Both the position numbers and the translations under genes were made by a program. This document shows, in pieces, positions 20,368-34,625 of a DNA stretch of 36,672 nt. Source of the stretch: Opitutus sp. GAS368 (GTDB lineage: Bacteria; Verrucomicrobiota; Verrucomicrobiia; Opitutales; Opitutaceae); NCBI GenBank assembly GCA_945903545.1, contig CAMDOO010000031.1:1-36672 (forward strand), written 5' to 3'. The notes beneath the pieces are model-generated. The model did no database searches. It saw nothing but the letters and a program-made list of their open reading frames with translations, and was not told where the DNA came from. Position 1 is the stretch's first letter. Every line of letters begins with the position of its first letter.

Positions 20368-20473
20368 GTTTCACGCAGAGACCGCTGGGGGCGCAGGGAA
20401 CTGAGTCGATCCCAGCCCAGGAAATGCTCCTACCCTTCCGTCCTCTGGGATCCCTGCGGCCTCTGCGTGAAAC
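20368..20473. repeat. Inverted pair of TTTCACGCAGAG-word repeats
   Basis: The left arm (20368-20399: GTTTCACGCAGAG then variants of CCGCAGG) faces the right arm (20451-20473: CCCTGCGGCCTCTGCGTGAAAC). The first 13 bases of the left arm are exactly complementary to the last 13 of the right arm. About 50 bp lie between. This is part of the 494-bp gap 20296-20789 that otherwise holds only a gene fragment and another repeat. Confidence 0.75.
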
Positions 20474-20546
20474 TTTCCGGGTCACCGGCTTGACCCGCAT
20501 CAAGGCGTCCTCTCCCCGGTTCAGGCATGATCGGATCGTGCCAGCC

Positions 20547-20694
20547 ATGACCCAATCACGCCCCCTGCCCGACACGCCCGGCTGGTTCGCCACCGGGCGC
20601 CCCCGGGAACACGGCAGCTGGTCGCTGGCGCTGGAACCACTGGTCCGCGGGCTCGCGGTGGCCCCGTCCACTCCCGGTTTCGCCATGGCGGTGG
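20547..20694 (+). pseudogene. N-terminal fragment of a YwiC-like membrane protein
   Basis: From ATG 20547 the frame reads LPDTPGWFATGRPREHGSWS, then LALEPLVRGLAVAPSTPGFAMAVA. The REHGSW and LEPLVRGLAVAPS segments match the start of YwiC-like membrane proteins (normally about 230-250 residues with several transmembrane helices). At about 20695 the frame enters a GGTAGGG-type repeat and no further YwiC-like sequence follows; the open frame continues only as antisense of fliC. It is thus an amputated gene. Confidence 0.55.
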
Positions 20695-20783
20695 CCCTAC
20701 CCTATCCCATCGCGGCCGGGCCAGCGGCCCAGCCCTACCCAGCTATCGCGGAAGAGGTCCGCCGGGGACGGCGGACCCTACCT
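20695..20783. repeat. GGTAGGG/CCCTACC repeat cluster beyond fliC
   Basis: The word CCCTACC occurs at 20695-20701, 20733-20739 and near 20777. It encloses a perfect hairpin, GGTCCGCCG (20756-20764), loop GGGA, CGGCGGACC (20769-20777), which lies 12 bp past the fliC stop codon and could be the flagellin terminator on the minus strand. Confidence 0.6.
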
Positions 20784-20789
20784 TTTGTA

Positions 20790-21665
20790 CTATTGCAGCA
20801 GGCGCAGGACCGACTCCGGGGTCTTGTTGGCCTGCGCGAGCATGGCGGTGCCGGACTGGACGAGGATGTTGTACTTGGCGTACTGGGTCGACTCCTCGGC
20901 CACGTCGACGTCGCGGATGCGCGAGATGGCGGCGCCGAGGTTCTCGTACTCGACCTGCAGGGTCTTCGAGGCCAGCTCGAGGCGCGACTGCGCGGCGCCG
21001 AGGGTGGCGCGCTCGGAGGCGACCTGCTGGATCGCGCCCGTGATGTCGGCGATCGCGTTGCTGTCGGTGACGCTCAGCGCATAGACCCCGGACGCATCCT
21101 GGTCGATGATGTCGAGCATGTCGTCCTGGCGGAGGTTCGACTCGGCGATCGTCATGTCCTGCCCGACCGCCTGGCCGATCGTGACGGTGAGGCCGGAGGC
21201 GTTGGCGCCAAAGAGGGTGATGCCGTTGAAGGCCCCGAGCGGGGTGTCGATGTCGGTCGTGCCGCCGATCTCGGACGTGGTGCCGCCGATGGTGGCGCGG
21301 AGCTGGTCCTGGAGGGCGGTGAACTCCTCCTGGTAGAGGGCGACGTCGGTCGAGTTCTTCGTCACGTCCTTCGCGAGAATCGCGAGCTCGCTCATGCGCG
21401 AGAGGATCTTGGTCATGCCGCCCATGAAGCCGTCGGCCGTCTGCACGAAGGAGACGGCGTTTTGGACGTTGGTGGTGGCGGCCTTCACGCGGCGGTTCTG
21501 GGCGTCGAGCTTCTCCGACACGGCGAGGCCGGCGGCGTCATCGGACGGGTTGACGATCTTCGAGCCCGAGGAGAGGCGCGTGAGGGAGCGACCCAGCATT
21601 TCCTGGGAGGCGTTGAGGTTGCGGGCGGCCGCGATGGCCTGGATGTTGGTGTTGATGACGCTCAT
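20790..21665 (-). CDS. fliC: Flagellin
   Basis: The 291-residue product has the two flagellin ends that pair in the filament core. The N-terminal D0/D1 region (SVINTNIQAIAAARNLNASQ, LTRLSSGSKIVNPSDDAAGLAVSE) and the C-terminal D1/D0 region (ATLGAAQSRLELASKTLQVE, ISRIRDVDVAEESTQYAKYN, ILVQSGTAMLAQANKTPES) are both intact. The central part is short, so the filament surface domain is minimal. The start ATG 21665 is fixed by MSVINTN. It is the last gene of the flagellar operon, 13 bp after csrA, and the overlap of csrA's end with the fliC leader suggests coupled translation. There is no Shine-Dalgarno, and a single GGA lies in the leader region. In the long frame from 21926 the extra 87 codons are the csrA antisense reading, not part of fliC. 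Confidence 0.95.
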   Translation of the reverse strand: MSVINTNIQAIAAARNLNASQEMLGRSLTRLSSGSKIVNPSDDAAGLAVSEKLDAQNRRVKAATTNVQNAVSFVQTADGFMGGMTKILSRMSELAILAKDVTKNSTDVALYQEEFTALQDQLRATIGGTTSEIGGTTDIDTPLGAFNGITLFGANASGLTVTIGQAVGQDMTIAESNLRQDDMLDIIDQDASGVYALSVTDSNAIADITGAIQQVASERATLGAAQSRLELASKTLQVEYENLGAAISRIRDVDVAEESTQYAKYNILVQSGTAMLAQANKTPESVLRLLQ

Positions 21666-21678
21666 GGCAGTGGTGGGT

Positions 21679-22029
21679 TCAGGCCGCGTGCTGTCCGTGG
21701 GACGGCGCGCGATTGGGTTTTCCACCATCCATGGCGGGCCGGGCCGCCGGGGCGGACCGAGGAACGACCGGGCCGGAATCCGTGGCCCGGGTGATTTTGG
21801 GAAGCTGGGACAGCGCGGGCAGACCGGCGGCGGGGGCCGACGGACCGCGCACGGCGGCGGCGCGGTTGGAGGCGCCGATCTCGGCCACGATCTCCTTGCG
21901 GAAGATCGGGACCTCGCGCGGGGCAACGATGCCGATCTTCACGACGTCGCCGTCGATGCGGTTGATCCGGATCTCGATGCCGTCGCCGATGATGATGGCC
22001 TCACCGGGCTTGCGGGAAAGTACGAGCAT
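21679..22029 (-). CDS. csrA: Carbon storage regulator CsrA with long C-terminal tail
   Basis: The first 52 residues are a standard Csr[21 protein letters not shown], then [19 protein letters not shown], with the RNA-binding edge strands and the VPIxRxEI end. CsrA binds GGA motifs and blocks translation, notably of flagellin mRNA. Typical CsrA is 55-75 residues; this one is 116, and the tail (from about residue 53) is Ala/Pro/Arg-rich and contains no recognisable domain. FliW normally binds a CsrA site close to this end, so the tail might modify that contact. It is flanked by fliW (45 bp) and fliC (13 bp). Confidence 0.93.
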
Positions 22030-22032
22030 GGC

Positions 22033-22063
22033 GTTTTGAGTTTTAAAATCTGAAATTTGAAAT
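22033..22063. repeat. AT-rich iterated word in the csrA leader
   Basis: Variants of GAAATTTGAAAT and TTTTAAAATC fill the gap before the csrA start. The 11-mer ATCTGAAATTT (22048-22058) is also at 25029-25039 in front of flgK, and TTTGAAATGC is also in both. No inverted partner was seen. Confidence 0.65.
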
Positions 22064-22074
22064 GCGCGCCGCCA

Positions 22075-22533
22075 TTAGCTGGCAGCCTGCAGCTCGGCGT
22101 TCTCCACCAGCGGATGGTGGGCGCTAAACTTCGAGTAGTTGGCGATGACCAGCTGGCGGCCGACCCGAGTGCGGCGGTTGACGACAATGGGACCGACGAG
22201 ATTGACCTTCGCCTCCAGCGGGCGCTGCTGGGCCATCGTGACGATGTTCAGGATCATGGCCTCGGACCCATCGGCGAGGCCGATGCCGGCCGCGTCCTCA
22301 TCGAAGAGCTCGGGCGTATAGCCAGGGATGAGGCCGGCGGGCTCGATCACGATGAAGTGGACCGAGTCCTTGGAACCGTGCAGGCGGAGCCAGAGGAACG
22401 GCAGGTGATCCGGGAGGTAAAGCAACTCGGCGCGGTTGTAGTCGGCGAAGCCGATCAGGCCCTGGGGCAGATCGAATGTATGGGTGACGGGCGAAGGCAG
22501 GTCGGAGGCGGGGATTTCCGTGAGGACTTTCAT
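22075..22533 (-). CDS. fliW: Flagellar assembly factor FliW
   Basis: A 152-residue protein with the FliW signature: FDLPQGLIGFADY near residues 20-32, LPFLWLRLHGSKDSVHFIVIEP, and the C-terminal VGPIVVNRRTRVGRQLVIAN followed by YSKFSAHHPL. FliW binds CsrA and frees flagellin mRNA, or binds flagellin, so it links flagellin level to translation. It is the regular length. It lies between flgL (57 bp) and csrA (45 bp), an order often seen in bacteria that use the FliW-CsrA-flagellin switch. Confidence 0.93.
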   Translation of the reverse strand: MKVLTEIPASDLPSPVTHTFDLPQGLIGFADYNRAELLYLPDHLPFLWLRLHGSKDSVHFIVIEPAGLIPGYTPELFDEDAAGIGLADGSEAMILNIVTMAQQRPLEAKVNLVGPIVVNRRTRVGRQLVIANYSKFSAHHPLVENAELQAAS

Positions 22534-22590
22534 GATGCGGGGAAGGAGTGAGGGACTTTGGGAATGAGGGGGGAGCCGTGGCCTCCGCGG

Positions 22591-23487
22591 TTACTTGATG
22601 TAGTCGAGAAGCGAGATGCGCATGATGCTGGCCGCGGATTGCAGCGCGGCCTGGTAAGCGGTGGCGGTCTGGTTGAGATGGACGATCGTCGTCGGGAGGT
22701 CCGCATCGACCTCGCTGGCCACGAGTTTTTCCAGGTCGGTGAGGCGGTCCTGCTGCTGGGCCTGGTTCACCTCGATGCGCATCTGGATCGCACCCTGCTC
22801 CGCCAGGGAGGAGACCAAGACGTCCTCGGTGGTGATCAGGCCCGTCTCGGCAACGGTCACGGCCGCGGAATCCCGCGCCTCGAGGGCATCGCGGAGTGCC
22901 ACGAGGTGGTTGAGGAAATCGGTGATACCCTGGTTGGTCGCCCCGGAGGTGCCGGCCGTGACGCTCGCGGTTTCGGAGAGCGCGATCGGGGACTGGGTGG
23001 TGTTGCCGTCGTAGGAAACGGAGGTCACGCGATCCTGGGCGTCGCGCAGGGCGGTAAAGGGTGCCGCGTCCACCGCGGTGCCGGCGTAAAGGTAGTCATT
23101 CCCGAAGCGGCTGTTGCCGAGCTGCACGGCCTGCTCGATGAGCTGGTTGATCTCAGCGGCGTAGGCCTGCATCGCCTCCGGGGCGGCGGTGCCGGCGCCG
23201 AGCACGCCGATCTCGGTCGCGCGGTCGGAAAGCTTCTTGATCTGCTGCAGCCCGCTGGTGGAGGCCTGGCTGAGCTCGAGCGCGCGGTTCGCGTTGCGGG
23301 CATACTGGGCCATCGCGCGCTGCTCCGTGCTCAGGTTGAGCACGCGGCCCATCGCCGCCGGGTCGTCCTCGGCCTGCGTGAGGCGCTGCCCGCCGGCCAC
23401 CTGCGCCTGCAGCTTCGCCTGCGACGTGCCCAGTTGCTGGATCTGCCGCACGAGGTTTTCCGTGATGGTGTTGGAGGAGATTCTCAT
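22591..23487 (-). CDS. flgL: Flagellar hook-filament junction protein FlgL
   Basis: The 298-residue product starts with RISSNTITENLVRQIQQLGT, the FlgL/FlgK-type D0 helix, and LQAQVAGGQRLTQAEDDPAAMGRVL, which matches FlgL (flagellin-like SSGKRI...DDPAA). The C-terminus (LPTTIVHLNQTATAYQAALQSAASIM, then ISLLDYI) is the partner helix. It is the last junction protein before the filament. The start ATG 23487 is set by MRISSN; the frame extends ten codons upstream into a repeat. The leader has a GGAG nine bases before the ATG, one of the few Shine-Dalgarno-like sites here, and contains the repeat 23495-23593. Confidence 0.93.
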   Translation of the reverse strand: MRISSNTITENLVRQIQQLGTSQAKLQAQVAGGQRLTQAEDDPAAMGRVLNLSTEQRAMAQYARNANRALELSQASTSGLQQIKKLSDRATEIGVLGAGTAAPEAMQAYAAEINQLIEQAVQLGNSRFGNDYLYAGTAVDAAPFTALRDAQDRVTSVSYDGNTTQSPIALSETASVTAGTSGATNQGITDFLNHLVALRDALEARDSAAVTVAETGLITTEDVLVSSLAEQGAIQMRIEVNQAQQQDRLTDLEKLVASEVDADLPTTIVHLNQTATAYQAALQSAASIMRISLLDYIK

Positions 23488-23494
23488 GGGGAAA

Positions 23495-23593
23495 AACTCC
23501 AAACGCCAAACTTCCAAACGCCAAAGACCGGCGGTCGGAAATGGAGCAGAACGGATTTCAGTTTGGAGTTTGGCACTTTGGAATTTGGCTTTT
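23495..23593. repeat. CCAAACG-word inverted repeat in the flgK-flgL gap
   Basis: Left arm 23495-23526 repeats CCAAAxx four times; right arm 23561-23593 is the inverted, varied copy (TTTGGAG, TTTGGCA, TTTGGAA, TTTGGCT). The arms pair in the flgL leader, and the GGA of the words lies close to the flgL start. A separate small palindrome CCGCGG-ATCAA-CCGCGG (23595-23611) holds the flgK stop codon in its loop. Confidence 0.75.
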
Positions 23594-23601
23594 GCCGCGG
23601 A

Positions 23602-25020
23602 TCAACCGCGGCCGAGGCGGTTGACCACGGTGTCCATGAGCTCGTCGACGATGGAGAAGACCCGGGAGGAAGCCTGAAAGGCGCGCTGGAAGCGGACGAG
23701 GTCGGCCATTTCTTCGTCGAGGGAAACCCCGCTCACGCCGTCGCGCTGCGACTTCACGAGCTGGGTGATGCTGTCCTGGTCGGAAAGGCGGGTGTTCACG
23801 CCGGCCAGGGCCTGGCCGAGGTTGCTGACCGCGCCGGAAAAATGCTGGCCGAGCGTGCCGTCGACGGCGTCGCCGCCGGCGGTCGAGAAGACCAGGTTGG
23901 CGACGTCAGCCACGGCGAGAGCCAGCGAGTTGTCGCCGGCGGCGGCCGAGCCGGCCCGGATGCCCGCGGCGGTGAGCCCGGCGGTGAGGCGGATGGTGCC
24001 GGCGGTCAGGCCCGCGCCGTTGAAGTAATCAGCGCCGACGGTCGCGCCCGGGTTGTAGGCGGCGTTGACGGAGGTGACGAGCTGGCGCGCAAGGTTGTCG
24101 AGAGCGGTGCGAAGCGTCTGTACGGCACCACCGCGCGCCGTGAGCGCACCGGCCACCGCTCCGGAGGAGAACGCAAGCCCCGTGGCCGACGCGCCGCCGG
24201 TCAGGCCCGTGCCGGTGAAGGCGACCGGGCCGGTGACGGTGGCATTATCGACGAGGACCACATCGGCATTCGCGGCATCGCGCATCACCACGTTGACCTG
24301 TCCATCGGTGCCGGGGCGGGTCTCGATCGGGACCAGGGCGGCGAGCTCCTCCAGGCGCGCCTGGCGCTGGTCGCGCAGGTCGACGGCGGAGCCCGGGCGG
24401 CCGATCTCGACGCGGCCGATCTGGTTGTTCAGGTCGGCAATGTTGGCGAGGAGTGTGTTGACGTCGGAGACGTTGCCGGCGATCTGGCTGTCGAGGTCGG
24501 CCTGGACCTGGCCGAGACGCGCGTCGGCCTGCTGGAAACGATCCACGAGGATCTGGGATTTCTGCAGGAGGGCCTGCCGCTCGCCCGTGTCGGTCGGGCG
24601 CGAGGCCAGGCTCTGGAAGGCATTGAAGTAATCGTCGAGCGCGGCGCCGAGCCCGCCGGTGCCGCTGCTGGCGCCCGCGGCGGAAGCGGCACCGCTGCGG
24701 TCGATGTTCTGACCCAGGCCGGCCTGCGCACGCTGGTAGGCGGACTGCTCGGCCGTGTAGGCGGACTGCAATCCCAGCTCGCGCATCACCTGCCGGTCGA
24801 GCAGCCCGTCGCGCAGCTGCTGGATGCCGAGCGCCTCGATCCCGAGGCTCTGGGCGCCCTCGGCGGTCACGACCGTGCCACGGTCGCCGTAGAGCACCCG
24901 CTGCCGGGCGTACGCGGTGTTATTGACGTTCGCAAGGTTGCGGCCGGCCGTTTCGATCGCGCGGCTGTGCGCGTTGAGCGCCTTGACCGAGGAATTAAGC
25001 GTGGTGAAGAGGCCGGACAT
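23602..25020 (-). CDS. flgK: Flagellar hook-associated protein FlgK
   Basis: A 472-residue FlgK: N-terminal SGLFTTLNSSVKALNAHSRA, then IETAGRNLANVNNTAYARQRV (flagellar rod/hook motif with NLANVNTPGY-like text), a coiled mid-section with GLGAALDDYFNAFQSLASRP (typical FlgK block), a middle variable domain, and a C-terminus VSLDEEMADLVRFQRAFQASSRV. It forms the first hook-filament junction layer. The ATG 25020 start is fixed by the MSGLF motif; upstream residues in the frame are flgN antisense or spacer. It is 49 bp after flgN, which encodes its likely chaperone. Confidence 0.93.
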   Translation of the reverse strand: MSGLFTTLNSSVKALNAHSRAIETAGRNLANVNNTAYARQRVLYGDRGTVVTAEGAQSLGIEALGIQQLRDGLLDRQVMRELGLQSAYTAEQSAYQRAQAGLGQNIDRSGAASAAGASSGTGGLGAALDDYFNAFQSLASRPTDTGERQALLQKSQILVDRFQQADARLGQVQADLDSQIAGNVSDVNTLLANIADLNNQIGRVEIGRPGSAVDLRDQRQARLEELAALVPIETRPGTDGQVNVVMRDAANADVVLVDNATVTGPVAFTGTGLTGGASATGLAFSSGAVAGALTARGGAVQTLRTALDNLARQLVTSVNAAYNPGATVGADYFNGAGLTAGTIRLTAGLTAAGIRAGSAAAGDNSLALAVADVANLVFSTAGGDAVDGTLGQHFSGAVSNLGQALAGVNTRLSDQDSITQLVKSQRDGVSGVSLDEEMADLVRFQRAFQASSRVFSIVDELMDTVVNRLGRG

Positions 25021-25028
25021 GCGGGTGG

Positions 25029-25058
25029 ATCTGAAATTTCCGATTTGAGATTTGAAAT
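25029..25058. repeat. AT-rich iterated word in the flgK leader
   Basis: Variants of ATTTGAAAT and ATTTGAGAT between flgN and flgK; it shares ATCTGAAATTT and TTTGAAATGC with the csrA leader (22033-22063). Confidence 0.65.
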
Positions 25059-25069
25059 GCCCGCGGGCC

Positions 25070-25567
25070 TCAGCCGGCAGCGTGCAAGGCCGGGGACGGA
25101 AGGACGGCGCCGAGAGCCTGCCGGCCTTCGGGCGAGTAGGTCTGGGTGAAGGCGTCAGGGCGGAGGGCCCGGAGCGTCTGGTGGTGGGTCTCGACGGCGC
25201 GCGCGAGCAGCAAGCGGTTGTGGCGCGAGGCGCGGCGGACGCGGTGGATGAGGACGTTGACCTCGGAGATGAGCGCCTCAAGGAGCGGGCGGACATCGGC
25301 CGGGAAGTGGGTGAGCAGCGCGCGCAGCGTGGAGGTGGCGGGCGCGCCGGAAACGCGGGCGGCGGCGGTCACGATTTCCTCGCGGTGGCGGCGGACCGCC
25401 TGCAGGACCTCGGCCTGGCCCTCGATCTCGCCGCTGAGGCGGAGCACGGCCTCGGCGTCGCGGTCGAAGAGGAACTGCTGCTGTTGCTCAAAGAGGTGCA
25501 GGAGACCGCCGTAGCCGGCGAGTTCCTCGCGGAGCACCTCGACCAGGGTTTCCCAGGATGAATTCAT
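25070..25567 (-). CDS. flgN: FlgN-family export chaperone
   Basis: A 165-residue, mostly helical protein. The N-terminal WETLVEVLREELAGYGGLLHLFEQQQQFLFD and LRLSGEIEGQAEVLQAVRRHREEI resemble FlgN (LLxxLxxELxxYxxLLxLxxxEQ). FlgN keeps FlgK and FlgL soluble and delivers them to the flagellar export gate. It overlaps flgJ by ATGA and directly precedes flgK, the expected client. A GGAG motif 11 bases before its ATG lies inside flgJ. Family assignment relies on the N-terminal pattern and context. Confidence 0.82.
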   Translation of the reverse strand: MNSSWETLVEVLREELAGYGGLLHLFEQQQQFLFDRDAEAVLRLSGEIEGQAEVLQAVRRHREEIVTAAARVSGAPATSTLRALLTHFPADVRPLLEALISEVNVLIHRVRRASRHNRLLLARAVETHHQTLRALRPDAFTQTYSPEGRQALGAVLPSPALHAAG

Positions 25568-25914
25568 GGTTTCGCTTTCTCCAGACTGGTCTCCGCGTCG
25601 ATCGAGGCGCGGGGCGTGAGTTGACGTTCCAGGATCTTGCCCAGCCCGAGCCCGCCGCCGGCGGTGAGCTGGTTGGCCAGCACGTCGGTCAACATGAAGC
25701 CGTACACGCTGGCGCCGGGGCCGCCGGACTCGCCGCCGAGGATGTTACCGACGCTCTTCTCGAGGAACTGCCGGACGAGGATCGCCTCGAACTGGCCGGC
25801 GGCGGCCTTGACCTGCTCGGCGGCGGGCAGGCGCGAGATGGCCCGCGGGTCGCCTCCAATGGCGATCGAGGACGCGGCACGGGCGGCGGTGGCGCTGATG
25901 AAGTCGGTGGTCAT
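25564..25914 (-). CDS. flgJ: Rod-binding protein, FlgJ N-domain only
   Basis: The 116-residue product covers just the rod-cap domain of FlgJ: AEQVKAAAGQFEAILVRQFLEKSV, then GASVYGFMLTDVLANQLTAGGGLGLGKIL. In gamma-proteobacteria FlgJ has an added peptidoglycan hydrolase domain (total about 310 residues), which is absent here, so another enzyme must open the cell wall for the rod. It is 3 bp after flgI and overlaps flgN by 4 bp. Confidence 0.87.
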   Translation of the reverse strand: MTTDFISATAARAASSIAIGGDPRAISRLPAAEQVKAAAGQFEAILVRQFLEKSVGNILGGESGGPGASVYGFMLTDVLANQLTAGGGLGLGKILERQLTPRASIDAETSLEKAKP

Positions 25915-25917
25915 GGC

Positions 25918-27087
25918 TCAGTTGATGATCAGCTCGGCCTGCAGGGCGCCGGCGCGCTTGAGCGACTGGAAGATCGCCATCATGTCGCGCGCGGAGACGC
26001 CGAGCGCATTGAGGGCGGCGGCGAGACGCTGGATCGTCGGCGGCTCGTCGAAGATGGTGAAGCCGCCCTTGGTCTCGTTGACCGCCGTCTGGGTGCTCGG
26101 CACCGTGGTGGTCTGACCCGAGTTATTGAAGGCGTTGGGCTGGCTGACGCCGACGTTGGACGAGACGGTGATGGTGAGGGTGCCGTGGGCGATGGCCACC
26201 TGGGCGATCCGGACGGTGGAGGTGGCGACGATCGTGCCGGTGCGCTCGTTGATCACGATGCGCGCGAGGGTGTCGGGCGCGACCTCGACCGTGCCGAGGT
26301 CGGCAAGGAAGGAAACATCGCGGCCGCGGTAGTCGTCGGGCACGCGGACGCTGACGGTCGCCGCATCGGTGGCGAGGGCGAGGCCGGCCCAGCGGGTGTT
26401 GATGGCGTCGGCCATGCGGGCGGCGGAGGTGAAGTCGGGATTGTGGAGCAGGAGGCGGAGCTGGTTGTCCTGCACAAAGACGGCGGGGATCTCGCGCTCG
26501 ACGATGGCGCCGTTGCTGATCGAGCCGACGGTCGGGTGGTTTTTCTGCACGGTGGCGCCGCCGGCGCCGCCGGCGCCGCCGAGGAAGCCGCCGATCGCGA
26601 TGGCGCCCTGGGCCACGGCGTAGACCCGGCCGTCGCCGCCGAGCAGCGGGGTCTGGAGGAGCACCCCGCCCTGCAGGGACTTGGCGTCGCCCATGGAGGC
26701 GACGGTGACGTCGATGCGGGCGCCGGGCTTGAGGAAGGCGCTGATGTCGGCGGTGAGCATCACCGCGGCGACGTTCTTGGCCTTGATGTCGGAGGCGCTG
26801 ACGCTGATGCCGTAGCGCTGGAGCGTGTTGGCGACGGCGCGCAGCGTGGAGGCGGCGTTGCTATCACCATCACCCGCGAGGCCGACGACGAGGCCGTAGC
26901 CGACGAGCTGGTTGTCCCGGCCGCCCTCGACGAGGGCGAGATCCTTGACGCGGGCGGCGTGCAGCGGGCAGGCGCAGAAGACCCAGGACACCAGGCACAG
27001 GACACCCGTGATTGCCCGCGCGAAGCGCCGGATCACGGGGTGACCGGTGACAAAGGACCGGTGGCTGGCAGCAAAAGGTGTCGTCAT
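25918..27087 (-). CDS. flgI: Flagellar P-ring protein FlgI
   Basis: A 389-residue exported protein. The signal peptide is long (RRFARAITGVLCLVSWVFCACPLHA, cleaved near residue 44), followed by the FlgI start ARVKDLALVEGGRDNQLVGYGLVVGLAGDGD. Downstream, SDIKAKNVAAVMLTADISAF, GARIDVTVASMGDAKSLQGG, and a C-terminal GVSARDMMAIFQSLKRAGALQAELIIN are very well conserved. It forms the P-ring in the periplasm, assembled with the FlgA chaperone. It is shifted 20 bp from flgH. The start ATG 27087 has no Shine-Dalgarno. Confidence 0.94.
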   Translation of the reverse strand: MTTPFAASHRSFVTGHPVIRRFARAITGVLCLVSWVFCACPLHAARVKDLALVEGGRDNQLVGYGLVVGLAGDGDSNAASTLRAVANTLQRYGISVSASDIKAKNVAAVMLTADISAFLKPGARIDVTVASMGDAKSLQGGVLLQTPLLGGDGRVYAVAQGAIAIGGFLGGAGGAGGATVQKNHPTVGSISNGAIVEREIPAVFVQDNQLRLLLHNPDFTSAARMADAINTRWAGLALATDAATVSVRVPDDYRGRDVSFLADLGTVEVAPDTLARIVINERTGTIVATSTVRIAQVAIAHGTLTITVSSNVGVSQPNAFNNSGQTTTVPSTQTAVNETKGGFTIFDEPPTIQRLAAALNALGVSARDMMAIFQSLKRAGALQAELIIN

Positions 27088-27107
27088 GATCTGGAAGGTC
27101 CCGGAGA

Positions 27108-27827
27108 TCAGAGGGGCCGGAGCCGCTCGTAGAGCTTGGTGAGCCAGCCGCGCTTCTGCGCGTCGGTGAGCTTGCCCTCGCCGATGAACTCGACGCGGGC
27201 GTCGGCGATGTTGGTGGAGAACACGGTGTTGGCCGGGGAGACGTCGTCGGGGCGCACAAGGCCGTGGAGGACGACGTACTGGGTCTCGCCGGAGAAGGTG
27301 ACGACGCGCACGCCCTCAATCACGAGGTTGCCGTTGGGCAGGACGTCGGCGACGAGGACGGCGGCGCGACTGTTAAGTGACTGGGTGTTGGCGACGGCGC
27401 CGCCGCCGGCGGTCGAGGCCTTCCCCTCGGCGGAGGTCGCGGGCGTCTCGCCCTTGTAGGTGCCGAAGCTGCCCTTGGAAGGGCTGAAGAGGTAGCGGTT
27501 GATCGCGTCCTCGACCGAGCTCGCGCGGTTGGTGCTAGCGGACTGGGAACTGGTGGCGGCGGCGCTTTCGGCGACGACGACGGTGAGGATATCGCCGGTG
27601 CGCGCGGCCTTGCGGTCGGCGACCATCGCGGAGGTGCCGGTGTTCTGGGCGGGCCAGAGCGAGTCGGCACGCGCGGCGAAAAATACACCCAAAAAGAGGA
27701 GGCCCAGGCAGGGCCCGACGTCCCGGCGGGACTTCCGGGCAGACGACGTTTGGGGGCCGCCAACCCGGGCCGCCTGAAGGTCGGCCCCTACGAGCGCTGT
27801 CGCGTCATTTCGATCGTGATGGCACAT
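27108..27827 (-). CDS. flgH: Flagellar L-ring protein FlgH with repeat-derived N-terminus
   Basis: The 239-residue product has the FlgH core: SLWPAQNTGTSAMVADRKAA, GDILTVVVAESAAATS, then the NRASSVEDAINRYLF and VLPNGNLVIEGVRVVTFSGETQYVVLHGLVRP, ending in FIGEGKLTDAQKRGW. It forms the L-ring in the outer membrane. The N-terminus is abnormal: after ATG 27827, residues about 11-26 (ALVGADLQAARVGGPQ) are a translated GTAGGGGCC palindromic repeat, and only then does a hydrophobic signal core (LGLLFLGVFFAARA, 41-54) follow. No lipobox is seen, whereas FlgH is normally a lipoprotein. No ATG or GTG start lies between the repeat and the core. It is 4 bp after flgA. Confidence 0.88.
   Translation of the reverse strand: MCHHDRNDATALVGADLQAARVGGPQTSSARKSRRDVGPCLGLLFLGVFFAARADSLWPAQNTGTSAMVADRKAARTGDILTVVVAESAAATSSQSASTNRASSVEDAINRYLFSPSKGSFGTYKGETPATSAEGKASTAGGGAVANTQSLNSRAAVLVADVLPNGNLVIEGVRVVTFSGETQYVVLHGLVRPDDVSPANTVFSTNIADARVEFIGEGKLTDAQKRGWLTKLYERLRPL
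27767..27791. repeat. GTAGGGGCC-type palindrome inside the flgH 5' region
   Basis: On the minus strand the repeat reads GTAGGGGCCGACC, TTCAGG, CGGCCC: outer GGGCCG (27767-27772) and CGGCCC (27782-27787) with an inner CCT-GA-AGG. It falls within codons of the flgH leader and keeps the frame open. Confidence 0.65.
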
Positions 27828-27831
27828 GGTA

Positions 27832-28545
27832 TCAGAAGCGGATTTGGACACGGTTTTTATCGATGACGGAGGCCGAGAAATCCTTCCTCGAGTCGGGATT
27901 GCGGACGGTGATGGTCTCGCCCTGGGCGCCATTCTGCAGGGCGAGGGCCTTGAGGTTGACTGTGAGGAGGCCATCGGTCGCAGAGACGTCGACGACCTCG
28001 CCCTTGCGCACGAGCGGGCGGCGGGCGACATCGCGCCAGCCAAGGAGCCGGCCGGCGAGGACGCCACGGGCGAAATCGTAGGAGCTGTCGCCGGCGGAGG
28101 CCGGGAGGGCGTCGCGGTCGCGGAGGAAATCGGTGCGGCGGGCGTCGAGCAGCGCGGGATCGAAGCGGGTGCCGTTGGCCAAAGGCTGGCGCGCATACCA
28201 GGCGTCGCGCCAGAGGGCGGCGCGGATGACGAGGGTCTGCTCGGCGGAGACGGTGCCGGCGGTGCGGACGCGGCAACGGAGCATCATCGAGCTGGCCGGG
28301 GCGGCCGGGTACTCCGTGATCTCGACCTGCCAGGACTGGACGGCGCGCTCGGGCGCGGTCCACGGGCGGAGGAGCTCAAGCTGGAGCTCACCCTCGAGGC
28401 TGAAATGATTGGCGAGGTCGGCGGCGACCGCGGCGACCAACTGCTCCGGCGTAAGGAGCCGGTCGGCCGGGGCGGGCACGGGCTCGGCGGCGGTGAGGCG
28501 CAGGGAAAGAAACGCGAGGAGAAGCAGCGGGAAAAACGTGCTCAT
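27832..28545 (-). CDS. flgA: Flagellar P-ring assembly chaperone FlgA
   Basis: A 237-residue exported protein. Signal peptide STFFPLLLLAFLSLRLTAA; mature part with LTPEQLVAAVAADLANHFSLEG, a central beta-rich region, and a C-terminal SAF-type domain (ARGVLAGRLLGWRDVARRPLVRKGEVVDV, TVNLKALALQNGAQGETITVRN). The C-terminal KGEVVDVxxxxG...ALxxGxxGExIxVRN is the FlgA signature. It helps the P-ring (FlgI) assemble in the periplasm. It is 2 bp after flgG and 4 bp before flgH, so coupling is likely. Confidence 0.9.
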   Translation of the reverse strand: MSTFFPLLLLAFLSLRLTAAEPVPAPADRLLTPEQLVAAVAADLANHFSLEGELQLELLRPWTAPERAVQSWQVEITEYPAAPASSMMLRCRVRTAGTVSAEQTLVIRAALWRDAWYARQPLANGTRFDPALLDARRTDFLRDRDALPASAGDSSYDFARGVLAGRLLGWRDVARRPLVRKGEVVDVSATDGLLTVNLKALALQNGAQGETITVRNPDSRKDFSASVIDKNRVQIRF

Positions 28546-28547
28546 GG

Positions 28548-29327
28548 TCAGCGCTTCATGTTGGCGACATTCTGCAGCATCTCGTCGGACGACTGCACGG
28601 ACTTGGAATTAATCTCGTAGGCGCGCTGGGCGACGATGAGGGCGACCATCTCCTCGACGATGTTGACGTTGGAGCTCTCGATGTAGCCCTGGATGGTGCT
28701 GCCGAAGCCCTGCTCGCCGGGGCTGCCGGTCTCGGGGGTGCCGGAGGCGGCGGTCTCGGAGTACTGGTTGCCGCCGAGGCTCTGCAGGCCGGCGGGGTTG
28801 GCGAAGCGTGCGAGGGTGAGCCGGTAGCCCTGCGTGCCGCTGGCGCTCTGGACGCTGACCTGGCCGTTCTCAGCGATCGTGAGCGTGGCGCCGGCCGGGA
28901 CCGGCTGAAATCCGCCGAGGACGGGCATGCCGTCGACGGTCACAACCTGGCCCTGGGCGTTGACCTTGAAGGAACCGTCGCGCGTATAGCCGATGGTGCC
29001 GTCGGAACGCTGGACCTCGAAGAAGCCGTCGCCCTGAATGGCGAGATCGAGCTTCTCGCCGGTGGCGGTGAGCTGGCCTTGAGTGAAGACCTTGGAGGTG
29101 GCCGCGACGCGGGCGCCGTTGCCGACCTCGGTGCCGGTGGGCACGAGGTTGCCGCCGCCGGAGTCGCTGCCCGACGCGCGGGGCTTCTGGTAGAGCATGT
29201 CCTGGAACTCGATCTTGCTGCGCTTGAAACCGGGGGTGTTCACGTTCGCGAGGTTGTTCGCGATCGTGTTGAGATTGAGCTGCTGGGCCTCCATGCCCGT
29301 GGCGGCGGAGTAAAGGGAGAGGTTCAT
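28548..29327 (-). CDS. flgG: Flagellar distal rod protein FlgG
   Basis: A 259-residue rod protein. N-terminus LSLYSAATGMEAQQLNLNTI and ANNLANVNTPGFKRSKIEFQD is the FlgG/FlgF D0 motif; then LDLAIQGDGFFEVQRSDG and YTRDGSFKVN, and C-terminal YIESSNVNIVEEMVALIVAQRAYEINSKSVQSSDEML, all as in FlgG. It forms the distal rod through the rings. It lies 35 bp after flgF, with no Shine-Dalgarno. FlgG and FlgF are paralogues; this one is FlgG by its C-terminal motif and usual length of about 260. Confidence 0.94.
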   Translation of the reverse strand: MNLSLYSAATGMEAQQLNLNTIANNLANVNTPGFKRSKIEFQDMLYQKPRASGSDSGGGNLVPTGTEVGNGARVAATSKVFTQGQLTATGEKLDLAIQGDGFFEVQRSDGTIGYTRDGSFKVNAQGQVVTVDGMPVLGGFQPVPAGATLTIAENGQVSVQSASGTQGYRLTLARFANPAGLQSLGGNQYSETAASGTPETGSPGEQGFGSTIQGYIESSNVNIVEEMVALIVAQRAYEINSKSVQSSDEMLQNVANMKR

Positions 29328-29362
29328 GGCGGGGAGGTCGGGAGGAAACGCGCGGGGCCGGC

Positions 29363-30115
29363 TCAGCCGAGAGCGTCGAGGGTCTTCTGCATCTGCTGGT
29401 CAACGCTCGTGATGATCTTCTGGTTCGCCTCGTAGGCGCGGGAGATGAGGACGAGGTCCACCATCTCGCGGAGCGGCTGCACATTGCTCTGCTCGAGGTA
29501 GCCCTGGATGATCTCGGGTTCATCCACGACCGACTTGCCGGCGCCGGGGGTGGCGAGGAACATGTCGCCCGCGGTGGGAACCAGGGCGGCGAGGTTGGCA
29601 AAGCGCTGGATGGAGAGCTTGCCGAGGACAGTCGTCCCCTGGGAAAGGGTGCCATCGTCGTTGATGTTGAGCGGCCCGCCGTTCGGGAGGAGGACGATCG
29701 GGTTGCCGCCGTCCGTCATGACTTCGAGGTTGGCAGAGTTGACCAGCGTGCGGTCGGGCCGGAGCCGGAACTCGCCGCTGCGGGTGTAGGCCATGGCGCC
29801 ATCGGGCTTCCGGACCTCGAAGAAGCCGTCGCCCTGGATGGCGACATCGAGCTCGCGCCGGGTCGGCTGGGTCTCGCCGTTCTGGAAGTTGATGCCGCTG
29901 TTCGCGTGCGTGAAGACGGCATTGATCTCGTTCTCGGCCCCGCCGTTCTTCGCCTCGGGATCGACGTTCCACTTGCCGGCGACCTCCGAGGAGAACTCCA
30001 CGGTGCGCTTGCGATAGCCGCTGGTTTGGGAGGACGTGATGTTCTGGGCCACGGCGTCCTGCCACCGCTCCAAGGCGGAAAGGGAGGAAGCGCTTTGGTA
30101 CAGACCGATATTCAT
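29363..30115 (-). CDS. flgF: Flagellar proximal rod protein FlgF
   Basis: A 250-residue rod protein: NIGLYQSASSLSALERWQDA and VAQNITSSQTSGYRKRTVEF at the start, then RRELDVAIQGDGFFEVRKPD, YTRSGEFRLRPD, and C-terminal YLEQSNVQPLREMVDLVLISRAYEANQKIITSVD. The N-terminal NI(T)SSQTSGY is a degenerate version of the NLANxxTPGY rod motif, so FlgF is the likelier paralogue. It is the first gene of the flagellar operon, starting about 11 bp from the sigma-54 promoter's -12 box, so its mRNA would be nearly leaderless. Confidence 0.88.
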   Translation of the reverse strand: MNIGLYQSASSLSALERWQDAVAQNITSSQTSGYRKRTVEFSSEVAGKWNVDPEAKNGGAENEINAVFTHANSGINFQNGETQPTRRELDVAIQGDGFFEVRKPDGAMAYTRSGEFRLRPDRTLVNSANLEVMTDGGNPIVLLPNGGPLNINDDGTLSQGTTVLGKLSIQRFANLAALVPTAGDMFLATPGAGKSVVDEPEIIQGYLEQSNVQPLREMVDLVLISRAYEANQKIITSVDQQMQKTLDALG

Positions 30116-30126
30116 CGTGGCACCGG

Positions 30127-30146
30127 TTTAGCAATGCCAGTGCCAA
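30127..30146 (-). promoter_or_regulatory. Sigma-54 (RpoN) promoter of the flagellar operon
   Basis: On the minus strand the sequence TTGGCACT-GGCA-TTGCT matches the -24/-12 consensus YTGGCACG-N4-TTGCW with one mismatch. The GG and GC doublets are ten bases apart, as needed for RpoN. The implied transcription start is about 30119, four bases before the flgF ATG. The activator site is not visible. Confidence 0.82.
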
Positions 30147-30309
30147 GCGCTCACGGCCAGGCCTTAGGACCTTTTCATTAACGTCTTAGAAAGGTTTGAA
30201 AATTCAAGAGGGGGCATCCGACCGGCCCGGCAACCCCCGCGGCAAAACTTGCCGCGCCCGGATAAAATCCTTGCCGCTCAAGGGCCGCAACCAACAGATT
30301 CCGGCTCCG

Positions 30310-31062
30310 ATGCTCCCCGAGGAATTCTACATTCGCAGCGCGACCGAGACGGAAGCGCGCGGCCCCTTCAACCTGGAGCAGGTGACCTCGCTGGCCGAGG
30401 CCGGGCAGGTGACGCTGGAGACACTTTATTACGAGCCCACCACCGAGAACTGGGTGCCGGTCGGCGAGAACGCCGAGGTGAAGGCCGCAATTTTCCCCGA
30501 GAAAAAAAAGCTCACGGTCAAGAAGGACCACAAGATCGTGACGCTGAACAAGGAGGACGACAGTGCGGCCCCGATCAATGTCACCGACATGCTCGCGGCG
30601 GCCGAGGGCCGGACCGCCGAGACGAGGGACAAGGCCGACCCGGAGATCGCACAGGCCATCGCCGCCAAGATCGGCATGTGGGCTGGCATCGTCACCCTTT
30701 TGCTCGCGGCCACCGCCGAGGTCATGCCCTCGCTCAACGTCCTGCTGGATTTCAAGGTGGAGAACCTGCTCGTCGAGCCACTGGTCATCCTCGGCGTCCT
30801 CGACGTGATGCTGGCCCTCTTCCTGATGCTGGGCATGGCGTCGGTTTATCCCTTCCTGCGTTTCCGCGCCGCCTTCGGCTTCGGGTTCATCGGCCTCCTC
30901 GCCTGGGTGCACGGCACGACCTCGCACCTCGCCTTCGTGGCCTTCGGCTCGGCCGGCCTCTATCTCTGCACGATCTTCGTGGCCTACGTCCCGGTCGGCA
31001 TCGCCACCGCGCTCGGCCTGATCGGCATGGGTGGGTATGCCTGGTTCGCGCTGAACAGCTGA
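30310..31062 (+). CDS. GYF_2-domain membrane protein
   Basis: A 250-residue product from ATG 30310. Residues 1-60 (FYIRSATETEARGPFNLEQ, SLAEAGQVTLETLYYEPTTENWVPV) match the GYF_2/DUF4339 domain, which has the GPFxxxQ...TxVxxxxxxxWxxV pattern. A Lys-rich linker (64-80) is followed by hydrophobic segments at about 123-140, 155-180, 184-200 and 206-245. GYF_2 domains bind proline-rich peptides or serve as small scaffolds at the membrane; the role here is unknown. It is divergent from the flagellar operon and 22 bp ahead of the YihY gene, so they probably share a transcript. Confidence 0.75.
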   Translation: MLPEEFYIRSATETEARGPFNLEQVTSLAEAGQVTLETLYYEPTTENWVPVGENAEVKAAIFPEKKKLTVKKDHKIVTLNKEDDSAAPINVTDMLAAAEGRTAETRDKADPEIAQAIAAKIGMWAGIVTLLLAATAEVMPSLNVLLDFKVENLLVEPLVILGVLDVMLALFLMLGMASVYPFLRFRAAFGFGFIGLLAWVHGTTSHLAFVAFGSAGLYLCTIFVAYVPVGIATALGLIGMGGYAWFALNS

Positions 31063-31084
31063 CTTCAGGCGGGCTGATCCACGC

Positions 31085-32566
31085 ATGAGCGCGAAATGGT
31101 GGCAGCGGTGGCAGCACTGGCCGGCCGTGGTGCACCGCCGGATCTGGCAGAGTTCCTACAGCCAGGAAAAACCGCGGACCCGGTGGCTCCTGGCCGTGCT
31201 GCGCGTCTGCTCCATCTCTTATACGGTTTTCATGGAAACCGCGGCGGCCAGCCGGGCGGCCGCCCTGAGCTTCAACTCCCTGCTGGGACTCGGGCCGCTG
31301 GTCGCCCTGGCCGTGCTGGTCGCCGGCTTCGTCCTCGGCAGCAGTGACGACCCGAACCTGGTCGCGAACAAGCTCAACGAGGTGCTGCGGTTCGTCGCCC
31401 CGCCGCTGGCCACCTACGAGCGGAGCCTGGTCGAGGGCGGGGGCGCAGGTCAGGCGGGCGCCAATCTCAACCCGGACGTGGTCAATCTCCTCAACGGCTT
31501 TGTCACCGGCGCCCAGTCGAGTGCGGCCGGAGTCACGAGCACGCTCTCGCTGATCCTGATCGTGCTCCTGCTGTTCAAGTCGATCGAGGACACCTTCAAT
31601 GACATCTGGGGCGTCCGCAACGGCCGCTCCCTGCTCATGCGGATCGTCTACTACTGGACGATTCTCACGCTGGGGGCGGTGCTCTTCTTCACCGCGCTCA
31701 CGCTCATCGGCGCCAGCGCGGCCCTGTTCACGTTCGAGAAGCTCCCGTTCGGCGATGAACTGGTTAGCTTCCTGCGCTGGCTCGTGCCCCCGGCCTCGTT
31801 CATGATGCTGGTGGGCCTGCTCACCCTGTGCTACCGGGTCATCCCGAATACCCGGGTGTATTGGCGGGCCGCGTTTGTGGGCGGGTTTGTGGTCACGCTC
31901 CTCCTCCTGCTGAACAACTTTGTGGCGCTCTTTTACGTCAAACGGATCATCCAGATGAAGAGCCTCTACGGCTCGGCCGTGCTGCCGTTTGTGATCATGC
32001 TCGGGCTCTACATCTTCTGGCTCTACGTGGTGATCGGCGCCATCATCAGCTACGCGGTCCAGAACTTCCATTTCCGCAGCAGCCAAGCGGCGTGGGGCAG
32101 CCTGAGCCAATCCATGCGCGAAAAGCTCTCCCTGATCATCTTCCTGACCATCTGCCGGCGTTTTCAGGACTGCCTGCCGGCCGTCAGCGCTTCCCACCTC
32201 AGCACGATGATCCGGGTGCCGACCCAGATCCTCAATGAGAGCCTCACCCGACTGGTCGACCTGGGCCTGCTCAGCCCCCTGCCCTCCGCCGATCAGGGCT
32301 CGTCTACCGACTACCTGTACCAACCTTCCCGCCCGCTGGATCGGATGACGCTCGCCGACTTCAAGGGCCTGTTCGAACGCCACGGCGAGGACCCCACGAT
32401 CGAGGCGATCGACGCCCTCGACCCCTTGGCCGCCAAGTACCAGGAGCGGCTTCGCACGCTCATGGCTGCCGACTCCAGACTCCTGCAGAAGCCGCTCGAC
32501 CAGCTTTTTACGGAGATTCCCTTCGTCGAGACCACCCCTCCATTCAGCCGGCTGAAACCGGGTTGA
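31085..32566 (+). CDS. YihY/BrkB-family membrane protein
   Basis: A 493-residue membrane protein. Its N-terminal two thirds matches YihY/virulence factor BrkB (often misnamed ribonuclease BN): MPETAAASRAAALSFNSLLGLGPL-like text (here METAAASRAAALSFNSLLGLGPL), FKSIEDTFNDIWGVRNGRSL, YRVIPNTRVYWRAAFVGG and a terminal SAVLPFVIMLGLYIFWLYVVIGAIISY. Six or so hydrophobic helices are seen. Residues about 345-490 form a soluble extension with a helix-turn-helix-like part (CLPAVSASHLSTMIRVPTQI, LTRLVDLGLLSPLP) that looks winged-helix-like, also known in some YihY proteins. Function unknown; it may act in envelope integrity. It lies between the GYF_2 gene and the chaperone gene. Confidence 0.83.
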   Translation: MSAKWWQRWQHWPAVVHRRIWQSSYSQEKPRTRWLLAVLRVCSISYTVFMETAAASRAAALSFNSLLGLGPLVALAVLVAGFVLGSSDDPNLVANKLNEVLRFVAPPLATYERSLVEGGGAGQAGANLNPDVVNLLNGFVTGAQSSAAGVTSTLSLILIVLLLFKSIEDTFNDIWGVRNGRSLLMRIVYYWTILTLGAVLFFTALTLIGASAALFTFEKLPFGDELVSFLRWLVPPASFMMLVGLLTLCYRVIPNTRVYWRAAFVGGFVVTLLLLLNNFVALFYVKRIIQMKSLYGSAVLPFVIMLGLYIFWLYVVIGAIISYAVQNFHFRSSQAAWGSLSQSMREKLSLIIFLTICRRFQDCLPAVSASHLSTMIRVPTQILNESLTRLVDLGLLSPLPSADQGSSTDYLYQPSRPLDRMTLADFKGLFERHGEDPTIEAIDALDPLAAKYQERLRTLMAADSRLLQKPLDQLFTEIPFVETTPPFSRLKPG

Positions 32567-32660
32567 TCCGCCGGCGCGAACCGGCCGTCCGCCCCACGGT
32601 CCAACCGGAATTCTCCCTTGCCAGCAGACGGCCCCAACCTAGCTTCGGCGATTCCCCATC

Positions 32661-34355
32661 ATGATCTCCTGGATTCAGCGCACCTTTCAGCACCATTTCC
32701 GGATCGTTTTCGGGGTGATGCTGGTACTCATCATCATCTCGTTCGTCTTCATTTACAGCCCGTCCTCGGGCCTCGGCAGCGCCGACGCCCCAGAGGTGAA
32801 GGCCCAGCAATATTTCGACCTCAACCTGGCCTCGGGCACCGACCAGCAGAAGCTGCTGAATGACGCCCTGCTGAGCATCAACCTCCAAGTCGGCTCCTCC
32901 GCCGGCATGGACAGCACCCAGCTCCAGGCCTACGCACTCCGCCGCTACGCCGCGCTGCGCGTTGCCGCCGAGCTCCACGTGCCGAACCCGACCGCGGCCG
33001 AGCTGACCGACCACCTCAAGTCCCTCCCGATCTTCGCCAGCGAGGACGGCAAGTTCGACGCCGCCCGGTACTCGACCTTCCGCCTGTCGCTCAAGTCCGG
33101 CGCCGGTGGCGTCAGCGAGGCCGCCATTGCCCGCGTGCTCAACGACGACTGGCGCGCCGGCGTCGTGCAGCGCCTGCTGGGCGGGCCGGGTTACGTGCAG
33201 TCCGGCGAGATCGCGACCCAGCTGAAGTACGTCGATACCCAGTGGAAGATCGCCTATGCCGCGGTGGACTACACCGCCTTCAAGCCCGCCATCACCCCCA
33301 CCGAGTCGGCGCTGACAAAATTCTTTGAGGACAACCTGTTCCGCTACGAGGTGCCACCGCAGGTCCGCGTGCACTACGCCGAGTTTCCGGCGACTGCCTA
33401 TCTGGCCCAGTTCACGTTGACCGACGATGAGATCAAGGCCTTCTACGACGGCAACCCCGGCCGTTTCCCGAAGCCCGCCGCGCCGGCCGCCACTCCCGCC
33501 CTCGCGACCCCGGTCGCGCCGGATGCCGCCGCCGACTTCGCCGCGGTCAAGCCGCAGGTCGAGACCGCGCTGCGCGGGGAGAAGGCCCTGCGCCTCGCGG
33601 TCCGCGAGGCCTCCAACCTCACCTTCGCGCTCTACGACCGGAAGGTCACGCCCGGCGCCTCGCTGACGAAGTTCCTCGCCGACCAAAAGATCACCCTCAA
33701 GGCCGCCGCCCCCTTCACCCGGGCTTCGGCTCCGGCCGAGTTCGGCGGCTCGGCCACCGCGACCGCCGCGGCCGACGAGGCGTTCAAGCTCGACGCCAAG
33801 CGCTTCTCCTCCGACGCCATCCCGCTGGCCAACGGCGCCGTCGTCCTGTTCTGGGATGAATCCATCCCCTCCCGCAAACCCGCGCTCAGCGAGGTCCGCG
33901 AGAAGGTCGCCGCCGATTACACGGAGAACGAGCGCCGCCTCCGCTTTGTCGAGGCCGGCCGCACGCTCCGCTCCCAGATCGAGACCCGGGTCAAGTCCGG
34001 CGAGGCCTTCGCCGCCGCCACCACCGCCGCCGCCAGCGCCGCGGGCCTGACGGTCGAGATCAAGGACCCCAAGGCCTTCACGTACCGCCAGCCCCCCACC
34101 GACGTCGAGAGTCCGGTCCTGGGCACGGTCGAGCGCCTGGAAAAGGGGAGCGTCTCCGAGATGGTCTCCAGCGCCGACAAGGGTTTCATCGTGCATGTCA
34201 CCGAAAAGACCCTGCCCGATGTGAGCAGCGCCAATCCCGCCTTCGCCACCAGCCGGGCCCAGCTGTCCAACTCGATGGCCAGCTTCAACTCCGACTCCTA
34301 TCTGGAGGAGATCGTCAGCCGGGAGCTCAAGAAGAGCGCCCCCGCCACTCCCTGA
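32661..34355 (+). CDS. SurA/PpiD-like membrane-anchored chaperone
   Basis: A 564-residue protein with an N-terminal single membrane anchor (about residues 12-33: HHFRIVFGVMLVLIIISFVFI) and a periplasmic body. Residues about 60-210 have the SurA_N/PpiD pattern: alternating LNDALLSINLQVGS, RYAALRVAAELHV, LTDHLKSLPIFA, FDAARYSTFRLSLKS. The later EVPPQVRVHYAEFPA and DDEIKAFYDGNPGRF segments are also typical of PpiD. The parvulin domain is not obviously complete, since no clear ARHILV start is seen. It would assist folding of outer-membrane proteins, in keeping with the TolC gene downstream. The start ATG 32661 is preceded by a 94-bp gap from the YihY gene. Confidence 0.72.
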   Translation: MISWIQRTFQHHFRIVFGVMLVLIIISFVFIYSPSSGLGSADAPEVKAQQYFDLNLASGTDQQKLLNDALLSINLQVGSSAGMDSTQLQAYALRRYAALRVAAELHVPNPTAAELTDHLKSLPIFASEDGKFDAARYSTFRLSLKSGAGGVSEAAIARVLNDDWRAGVVQRLLGGPGYVQSGEIATQLKYVDTQWKIAYAAVDYTAFKPAITPTESALTKFFEDNLFRYEVPPQVRVHYAEFPATAYLAQFTLTDDEIKAFYDGNPGRFPKPAAPAATPALATPVAPDAAADFAAVKPQVETALRGEKALRLAVREASNLTFALYDRKVTPGASLTKFLADQKITLKAAAPFTRASAPAEFGGSATATAAADEAFKLDAKRFSSDAIPLANGAVVLFWDESIPSRKPALSEVREKVAADYTENERRLRFVEAGRTLRSQIETRVKSGEAFAAATTAAASAAGLTVEIKDPKAFTYRQPPTDVESPVLGTVERLEKGSVSEMVSSADKGFIVHVTEKTLPDVSSANPAFATSRAQLSNSMASFNSDSYLEEIVSRELKKSAPATP

Positions 34356-34625
34356 GGCCGACCGCTCATCCCTGCGCCCGACCACTGACGCCATCCCGTC
34401 TGGCCAGCCCGCCCTCCGATCCGGAATACTGTGCCGATGATTTGCCCGCATTCATCCTCCCGGTCCCCGATCCTGGCAGGAAATCCGCGTAACTTCCCCT
34501 GCCTTGGACCGTCTGTCTGCGCGGTGCCCCAGCCCTGCTTGGTGCGCCAAAAACGGTGCGACGCCGGCTGACGGCTCCCGCTCCTTTCTCTTTTTCAACT
34601 TTCGCCCGAATTTCCAATCGCCGCC

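Follow-up and report, generated by a model that had tools for sequence, protein, structure and literature searches.

A conserved sigma-54 promoter placed close to the flgF start codon predicts a near-leaderless flagellar mRNA in Opitutus and related Verrucomicrobiota

Can a sigma-54 promoter drive a flagellar operon when its core elements almost touch the first start codon? Sigma-54 promoters are the best-understood activator-gated class, and leaderless messages are usually tied to promoter classes other than sigma-54. In the stretch of 36,672 nucleotides from Opitutus sp. GAS368 that we analysed as a whole (hereafter the window), an initial annotation had placed an RpoN match directly before flgF and claimed that transcription would start about four bases ahead of the flgF ATG, at the head of a twelve-gene operon that holds flagellin beside rod genes.

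The RpoN match was confirmed at its place. The sequence TGGCACTGGCATTGCT, on the minus strand at 30145-30130, is a perfect sigma-54 -24/-12 element with the GG-N10-GC arrangement. Read along the minus strand from 30146 to 30113, TTGGCACTGGCATTGCT (30146-30130) is followed by AAACCGGTGCCACG and then by the ATG at 30115, the -12 C (C30131) lying 15 nt before that ATG. It is the sole match to TGGCAC-N5-TTGCW with zero mismatches in the window, and one of two in the 3,083,619-base (3.08-Mb) assembly. The genome also encodes rpoN (PF04552, 193.5 bits), on which the initial annotation had made its reading depend. Motif counts alone prove nothing in this genome, since relaxed sigma-54 matches number 8 against 33 for a control pattern; with up to two mismatches allowed, the window contains 7 matches, no more than the 13.3 expected by chance. 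What speaks for the site in the window is thus that the match is perfect, where it lies and that it is conserved; conservation was tested because the relaxed motif is not over-represented in the window or in the genome. The second perfect match of the assembly, at C1:70262 near rpoN, is followed by an ORF of at least 80 aa only after 236 nt and probably arose by chance. The features considered here are collected in Table 1.

Table 1. Features of the flgF-to-fliC region, in window coordinates
Feature	Position	Strand	Basis
Enhancer-like dyad, GGCAAGTTTTGCC on minus (GGCAAAACTTGCC on plus), centre at -128; putative activator site	30241..30253	-	
AT-rich stretch between dyad and core, possible bend site	30165..30205	-	AT content over 79 loci
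Sigma-54 core promoter, -24 TGGCAC and -12 TTGCT, GG-N10-GC	30130..30145	-	Motif match and conservation at 79/79 flgF loci
Predicted mRNA 5' leader, about 4 nt	30116..30119	-	-12 to +1 position rule
flgF, first operon gene, ATG at 30115	29363..30115	-	N terminus conserved from residue 1
flgG	28548..29327	-	Rod/hook FlgEFG families; gene order
flgA	27832..28545	-	PF13144
ORF holding flgH, true start probably past first ATG	27108..28196	-	PF02107 at residues 176-360
flgI	25918..27087	-	PF02119
flgJ-like, rod-binding protein	25564..25914	-	PF10135, 21.9 bits, below curated cut-off of 25.1
flgN	25070..25567	-	PF05130
flgK, probable start at MSGLF	23602..25020	-	Profile match and gene order
flgL, probable start at MRISS	22591..23487	-	Profile match and gene order
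fliW	22075..22533	-	PF02623
csrA	21679..22029	-	PF02599
fliC, flagellin, probable start at MSVINT, 13 nt past csrA	20790..21665	-	Profile match
Hairpin just 3' of fliC, possible terminator without a clear T run on the minus strand	20756..20777	-	

Conservation was followed at 79 flgF loci, namely the window and the 78 relatives with an intact N terminus among the best 80 of 155 loci from a FlgF search; L096 and L105, in which the N terminus is absent, were excluded. The relatives are nearly all metagenome bins, a few of them with odd names, and their depositor labels include Opitutaceae, Opitutae, Spartobacteria, Terrimicrobiaceae, Pedosphaera and Verrucomicrobiales. In eight loci whose alignment began only at residue 4, the start was shifted to an ATG 9 nt further upstream. 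At all 79 loci, GGCA-N8-GC was present with its -12 C 11-18 nt ahead of the start codon. Within the same band, GG-to-GC spacings of 7, 8, 9, 11, 12 or 13 occurred at 0-1 of the 79 loci, and the right spacing was found at none of them between 19 and 60 nt before the start; shuffling of the upstream sequence (200 rounds) gave a mean of 0.23 loci with GGCA-N8-GC in the band and a maximum of 2. Although the loci are related, the 19 representatives left when FlgF was thinned at 60% identity all keep a -12-to-start distance of 12-18 nt, while the spacers between the -12 element and the ATG are of 77 distinct kinds among the 79 loci. Together these comparisons indicate a near-start sigma-54 layout that appears unusual and kept across related bacteria. 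One subgroup (L053-L055, L058-L060, L062-L065, L067, L068, L072, L091 and L107) has a variant core with a G before the -12 GC, for example CGGCAC...TTGGCT, in which GG-N10-GC is retained.

The distance measured depends on the start codon, which is ATG at 78 of the 79 loci and GTG at the other. FlgF is conserved from residue 1; an in-frame stop lies between the -12 element and the ATG at 26 loci, and an upstream in-frame start is absent at 46, while at nine loci a start codon in frame does fall between the -12 element and the ATG. N-terminal conservation, together with these stops and missing upstream starts, makes the flgF ATG very probably the true start. The transcription start was then placed by the -12 rule, about 12 nt past the -12 C, which with C30131 as -12 puts +1 near 30119 and predicts a 4-nt leader, or roughly 3-6 nt with the usual slack of a couple of bases; this is in agreement with the claimed start. 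The same rule gives predicted leaders of 0-7 nt over the 79 flgF loci (78 from the best 80 of 155, and the window). At the rule-based +1, C is the most frequent base (48/79) where a purine would be usual, which counts against that placement; a G ten bases and a C twelve bases past the -12 C each occur at 48 of the 79 loci, frequencies that leave the exact start unsettled, and in the window, starting instead at the G two bases upstream would lengthen the leader to 6 nt. An mRNA whose 5' end lies a few nucleotides before the AUG would have no room for a ribosome-binding site, and its translation would be leaderless or near-leaderless.

The predicted leader is too short to hold a Shine-Dalgarno motif at working distance, and such motifs had been said to be lacking in the window. 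Indeed, for the seven genes with at least 29 secure starts (flgF, flgG, flgN, flgL, fliW, csrA and fliC), the frequency of Shine-Dalgarno-like 4-mers ahead of the start is close to the in-gene background or below it; flgA, flgI and flgJ offered 1-3 loci each, and flgH and flgK none. Before flgF itself, 4-mers reach 0.23 compared to an in-gene background of 0.15, and 5-mers 0.05 (43 loci), most of the 4-mers lying upstream of the predicted 5' end. This scarcity agrees with a survey that lists some Verrucomicrobia as poor in Shine-Dalgarno motifs (PMC10783764), a clade that leaderless translation would fit; the accessible text of that survey draws no link to promoter position or to sigma-54. Of 12 window genes compared (window 22029-34626), 10 have a C directly ahead of the start codon, and in the flgF set C is the most frequent base at -1 (46/79) and at -2 (42/79), a possible signature of initiation without Shine-Dalgarno motifs.

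The same layout recurs at other genes, a look for the motif before other flagellar operons having been suggested in the initial annotation. In 54 genomes (the organism's own and relatives'), TGGCAY-N6-TGCT stands 11-16 nt before an ATG 122 times compared to 28 for the reversed control (about 20 against 5 per distance), and 17-46 nt before an ATG 218 times compared to 172 (about 7 against 6 per distance), an enrichment that is specific to the short distances and slight beyond them. Strong near-start sites were seen at 11 of 12 flgB loci of relatives, the remaining one (L192) having a weaker match, 8/10 positions, at 12 nt; at 33 of 38 flhB loci; and at 6/6 copies of an unnamed ORF in relatives' flagellar clusters, which encodes about 200 residues without a Pfam match (L185:2615-3211 and homologues). 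These sites lie 12-20 nt before the start once upstream in-frame codons are set aside, some distances of 0-10 reflecting an in-frame GTG, TTG or ATG that precedes the conserved start, and the leader predicted before flhB is up to about 9 nt. The near-start layout is missing at flhB of L193 and of four loci from distant lineages, L109, L113, L118 and L119; L113 and L118, with no GG-N10-GC in the scanned stretch, were scored as misses in the 33/38. For these counts, flhB and flgB matches starting past residue 30 were skipped, identical sites were counted once and the flhB of L049, too close to an end, was excluded. Outside the flagellar genes, amtB of the organism's own genome shares the layout, its sigma-54 site (G000:C40:9643-9658, L200) standing 16 nt ahead of the ATG, and L152 and L157 show the near-start layout before amtB-like genes, named by resemblance. 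The near-start sites at relatives' flagellar genes and at the organism's own amtB thus indicate that the layout is not peculiar to the flgF operon. The layout has counter-examples: glnA of the same genome (named by resemblance) has its sigma-54 site at 93 nt.

Upstream of the core promoter lies the palindrome GGCAANNNTTGCC, which would suit binding by an NtrC-family activator. Between -200 and -40, this dyad is present with no more than one mismatch at 68 of the 79 flgF loci, compared to a shuffle mean of 0.4 (maximum 3). Allowing two mismatches raises the count to 78 (shuffle mean 5.3, maximum 9), L109 being the locus with no dyad within two mismatches before flgF. Its centres cluster near -140, -130 and -83, and to a lesser extent near -108 and -76. 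A period of 11 fits this spacing best of those tried and 10.5 less well, a fit inflated by the kinship of the loci; helical phasing of the dyad positions is suggested. Counted without a shuffled control, dyads with at most two mismatches occur before 9/12 flgB, 33/36 flhB and all 6 copies of the unnamed ORF. Most of them lie at -129 or at -138 to -140, and three flgB loci have none. In the organism's own genome the dyad has 16 matches compared to 9 for the control, at 14 loci, and among these only flgF has a sigma-54 match above 8/11 within 250 nt. Between dyad and core, mean AT content peaks at 0.68 around -70 over the 79 flgF loci, and TTTAA starts exactly at -71 in 25 of them, the exact TTTAA being absent in the window. 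The AT peak, together with TTTAA at -71, would suit a bend site.

As for the protein that may act there, the initial annotation had proposed to look for an NtrC-like flagellar regulator in the genome. The genome has seven matches to the sigma-54 activator domain, four of them strong. In the flagellar cluster of one relative (L190), about 1.7 kb upstream of flgB, lies the gene of a response regulator that combines a sigma-54 activator domain with a Fis-type HTH domain. We suggest its family as a candidate activator of the flagellar promoters, but the protein has no close counterpart in the organism's own assembly (best 42%).

These data bear on where the main flgF message begins. A real sigma-54 promoter could give only a minor, short-leader transcript, the main mRNA coming with a long working leader from another promoter further upstream. 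Other promoter classes are poorly known in this clade, and the strict sigma-70 consensus is too rare to inform (11 among the matches listed, in 54 genomes). Nevertheless, a simple consensus scan found no sigma-70-like match in window 20200-30400, the sigma-54 element and the dyad are strongly conserved, and so is the distance to the ATG itself; we consider a main promoter further upstream unlikely. We also considered the inverted repeat TGGCACTGG-N10-CCGGTGCCA (one mismatch), a near-perfect 9-bp repeat that spans core promoter and leader (window 30117-30145) and might be functional as a repressor operator or as a two-way promoter that also serves the divergent GYF-domain gene, the plus strand having TGGCACCGGTTTAGCA, one mismatch off the consensus. 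At only 7 of the 79 loci, however, is the -24 element repeated in inverted form over 5 or 6 bp (shuffle mean 0.98), and a divergent site occurs at 4/79 compared to 79/79 for the minus-strand promoter; with the repeat confined to few relatives, the divergent or palindromic operator reading was rejected as highly improbable. Finally, a random motif near an ATG, with which the low counts of relaxed matches in window and genome would agree, can practically be dismissed on the 79/79 flgF loci with their specific spacing and distance and on the same layout at other flagellar genes.

Downstream of the sigma-54 promoter, the window contains flgF, flgG, flgA, flgH, flgI, a flgJ-like gene, flgN, flgK, flgL, fliW, csrA and fliC in one run. 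Among the 49 loci (window included) that extend over 9 kb downstream, 36 have all twelve in this order, which lends weight to the claimed twelve-gene operon; at the other 13, one or more of flgJ, fliW, csrA and fliC could not be placed in the order, whether the gene was lost, has diverged or falls beyond the end of the stretch. The distance from csrA to fliC is within 90 nt at 30 of 31 loci. Conserved gene order supports the view that flagellin would share a transcript with the rod genes. The sigma-28 flagellin promoter consensus is TAAA-N15-GCCGATAA, and its best match before fliC scores no higher, at a mean of 7.39/12, than that in shuffled sequence, at 7.45 (31 loci). A strict sigma-54 site within 250 nt before fliC was found at L106 only, where fliC stands 707 nt apart from csrA and has its own site 63 nt before the ATG, a further counter-example to the near-start layout. 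The CsrA of the window (21679-22029) has 116 residues, with the CsrA domain ending at residue 51, and in 30 relatives CsrA has 80-113 residues, so that the C-terminal tail varies.

Flagellin in a rod-gene operon does not imply that the late sigma factor is missing from the lineage, because relatives encode a FliA-family sigma. The organism's own assembly, 98.6% complete, has no FliA above the cut-off and no FlhA. In the congener G001, FlhA and a FliA-family sigma are encoded on the same contig; relatives' flagellar clusters, the congener's among them, encode FliA-family sigma factors, and two of these proteins, compared with NCBIfam, are both above the FliA_WhiG cut-off. The idea that sigma-28 is missing from the lineage was rejected on these grounds. 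Since the congener has FlhA and FliA, part of the flagellar set is probably unassembled here, the rest of the cluster (FlhA, FliA) probably missing from the bin as an unbinned contig; a real loss in the organism is possible. Together with the lack of a close activator counterpart, the missing FlhA and FliA indicate that the flagellar system may be incomplete in the assembly. In some systems CsrA represses flagellin translation and FliW relieves this repression; fliW and csrA are encoded here just before fliC, and by analogy this would be a likely timing device.

How does this layout compare with known systems? The RpoN flagellar promoters of Vibrio, Pseudomonas, Helicobacter and Campylobacter are alike in the -24/-12 core, the NtrC-family activator and the rod, hook and export targets; they have ordinary leaders with ribosome-binding sites, whereas here the core nearly abuts the start codon. 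Sigma-54 sites of C. jejuni have been mapped in a study that also maps leaderless mRNAs, the latter preceded by sigma-70 sequences (PMC3847290). Both sigma-54 starts and leaderless mRNAs have likewise been mapped in S. meliloti (PMC3616915), while for C. pneumoniae five leaderless mRNAs are described and no sigma-54 promoter at annotated coding genes (PMC3333780). The leaderless mRNAs of Deinococcus (PMC12340547), Leptospira (PMC5243855) and actinobacteria resemble the message predicted here in a 5' end within about 10 nt of the AUG and in having no Shine-Dalgarno motif. In Deinococcus-Thermus it is the promoter -10 region that adjoins the ORF (PMC12340547); the promoters considered here are of the sigma-54 type, would be activator-dependent and belong to a set of one function. 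Leptospira, with many leaderless mRNAs, has a sigma-54 site before amtB, so that those data may already include a sigma-54 gene with a near-leaderless message (PMC5243855). For Opitutia, a predicted sigma-54 motility regulon points to sigma-54 control of motility genes (PMC12316311), and the terms "leaderless", "translation start" and "start codon" are absent from the main text of that paper. A literature search by title and abstract start, which covered few subscription papers, found no report of near-leaderless sigma-54 flagellar promoters.

Altogether, we propose that sigma-54 RNA polymerase would bind at 30145-30130, the promoter of the flgF-to-fliC operon, and that an NtrC-family enhancer-binding protein would occupy the palindrome at 30241-30253 (about -128). 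The DNA between dyad and core, AT-rich around -70, would bend, and the activator would then open the promoter. Transcription would start about 12 nt past the -12 C, the mRNA beginning a few nucleotides before the AUG, and translation would be leaderless or nearly so, relying on an AUG close to the 5' end. Relatives would use the same arrangement at their other flagellar operons. We regard an activator-gated sigma-54 promoter with a near-leaderless mRNA of the flgF-to-fliC operon as the best explanation of the sequence evidence, and as a quite probable one. More widely, that evidence supports a conserved, probably activator-gated, near-leaderless sigma-54 layout for Verrucomicrobiota flagellar operons.

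A broader reading is tentative, weakened a little by the five flhB loci without the layout, and we hold it as somewhat less probable than its opposite. Flagellated Verrucomicrobiota might hold the -12 element 11-20 nt from the AUG across their flagellar operons, flagellin included, so that activator-gated transcription and leaderless translation free of Shine-Dalgarno motifs become one signal; the filament step would be timed after transcription, by FliW and CsrA of the same operon acting on flagellin, and the leaderless first genes would not have the leader that CsrA usually targets. The layout may extend beyond Verrucomicrobiota, the phylum to which all data here belong. Functionally linked operons that join sigma-54 to a leaderless layout, and keep it where FlgF identity falls to about 35%, would be an example from nature of a promoter whose placement fixes where translation starts. 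The layout would help to predict regulon members and start codons in this phylum, for which genetic tools are scarce. It also prompts one to ask what times the flagellar cascade if a single transcript carries rod, hook and filament genes.
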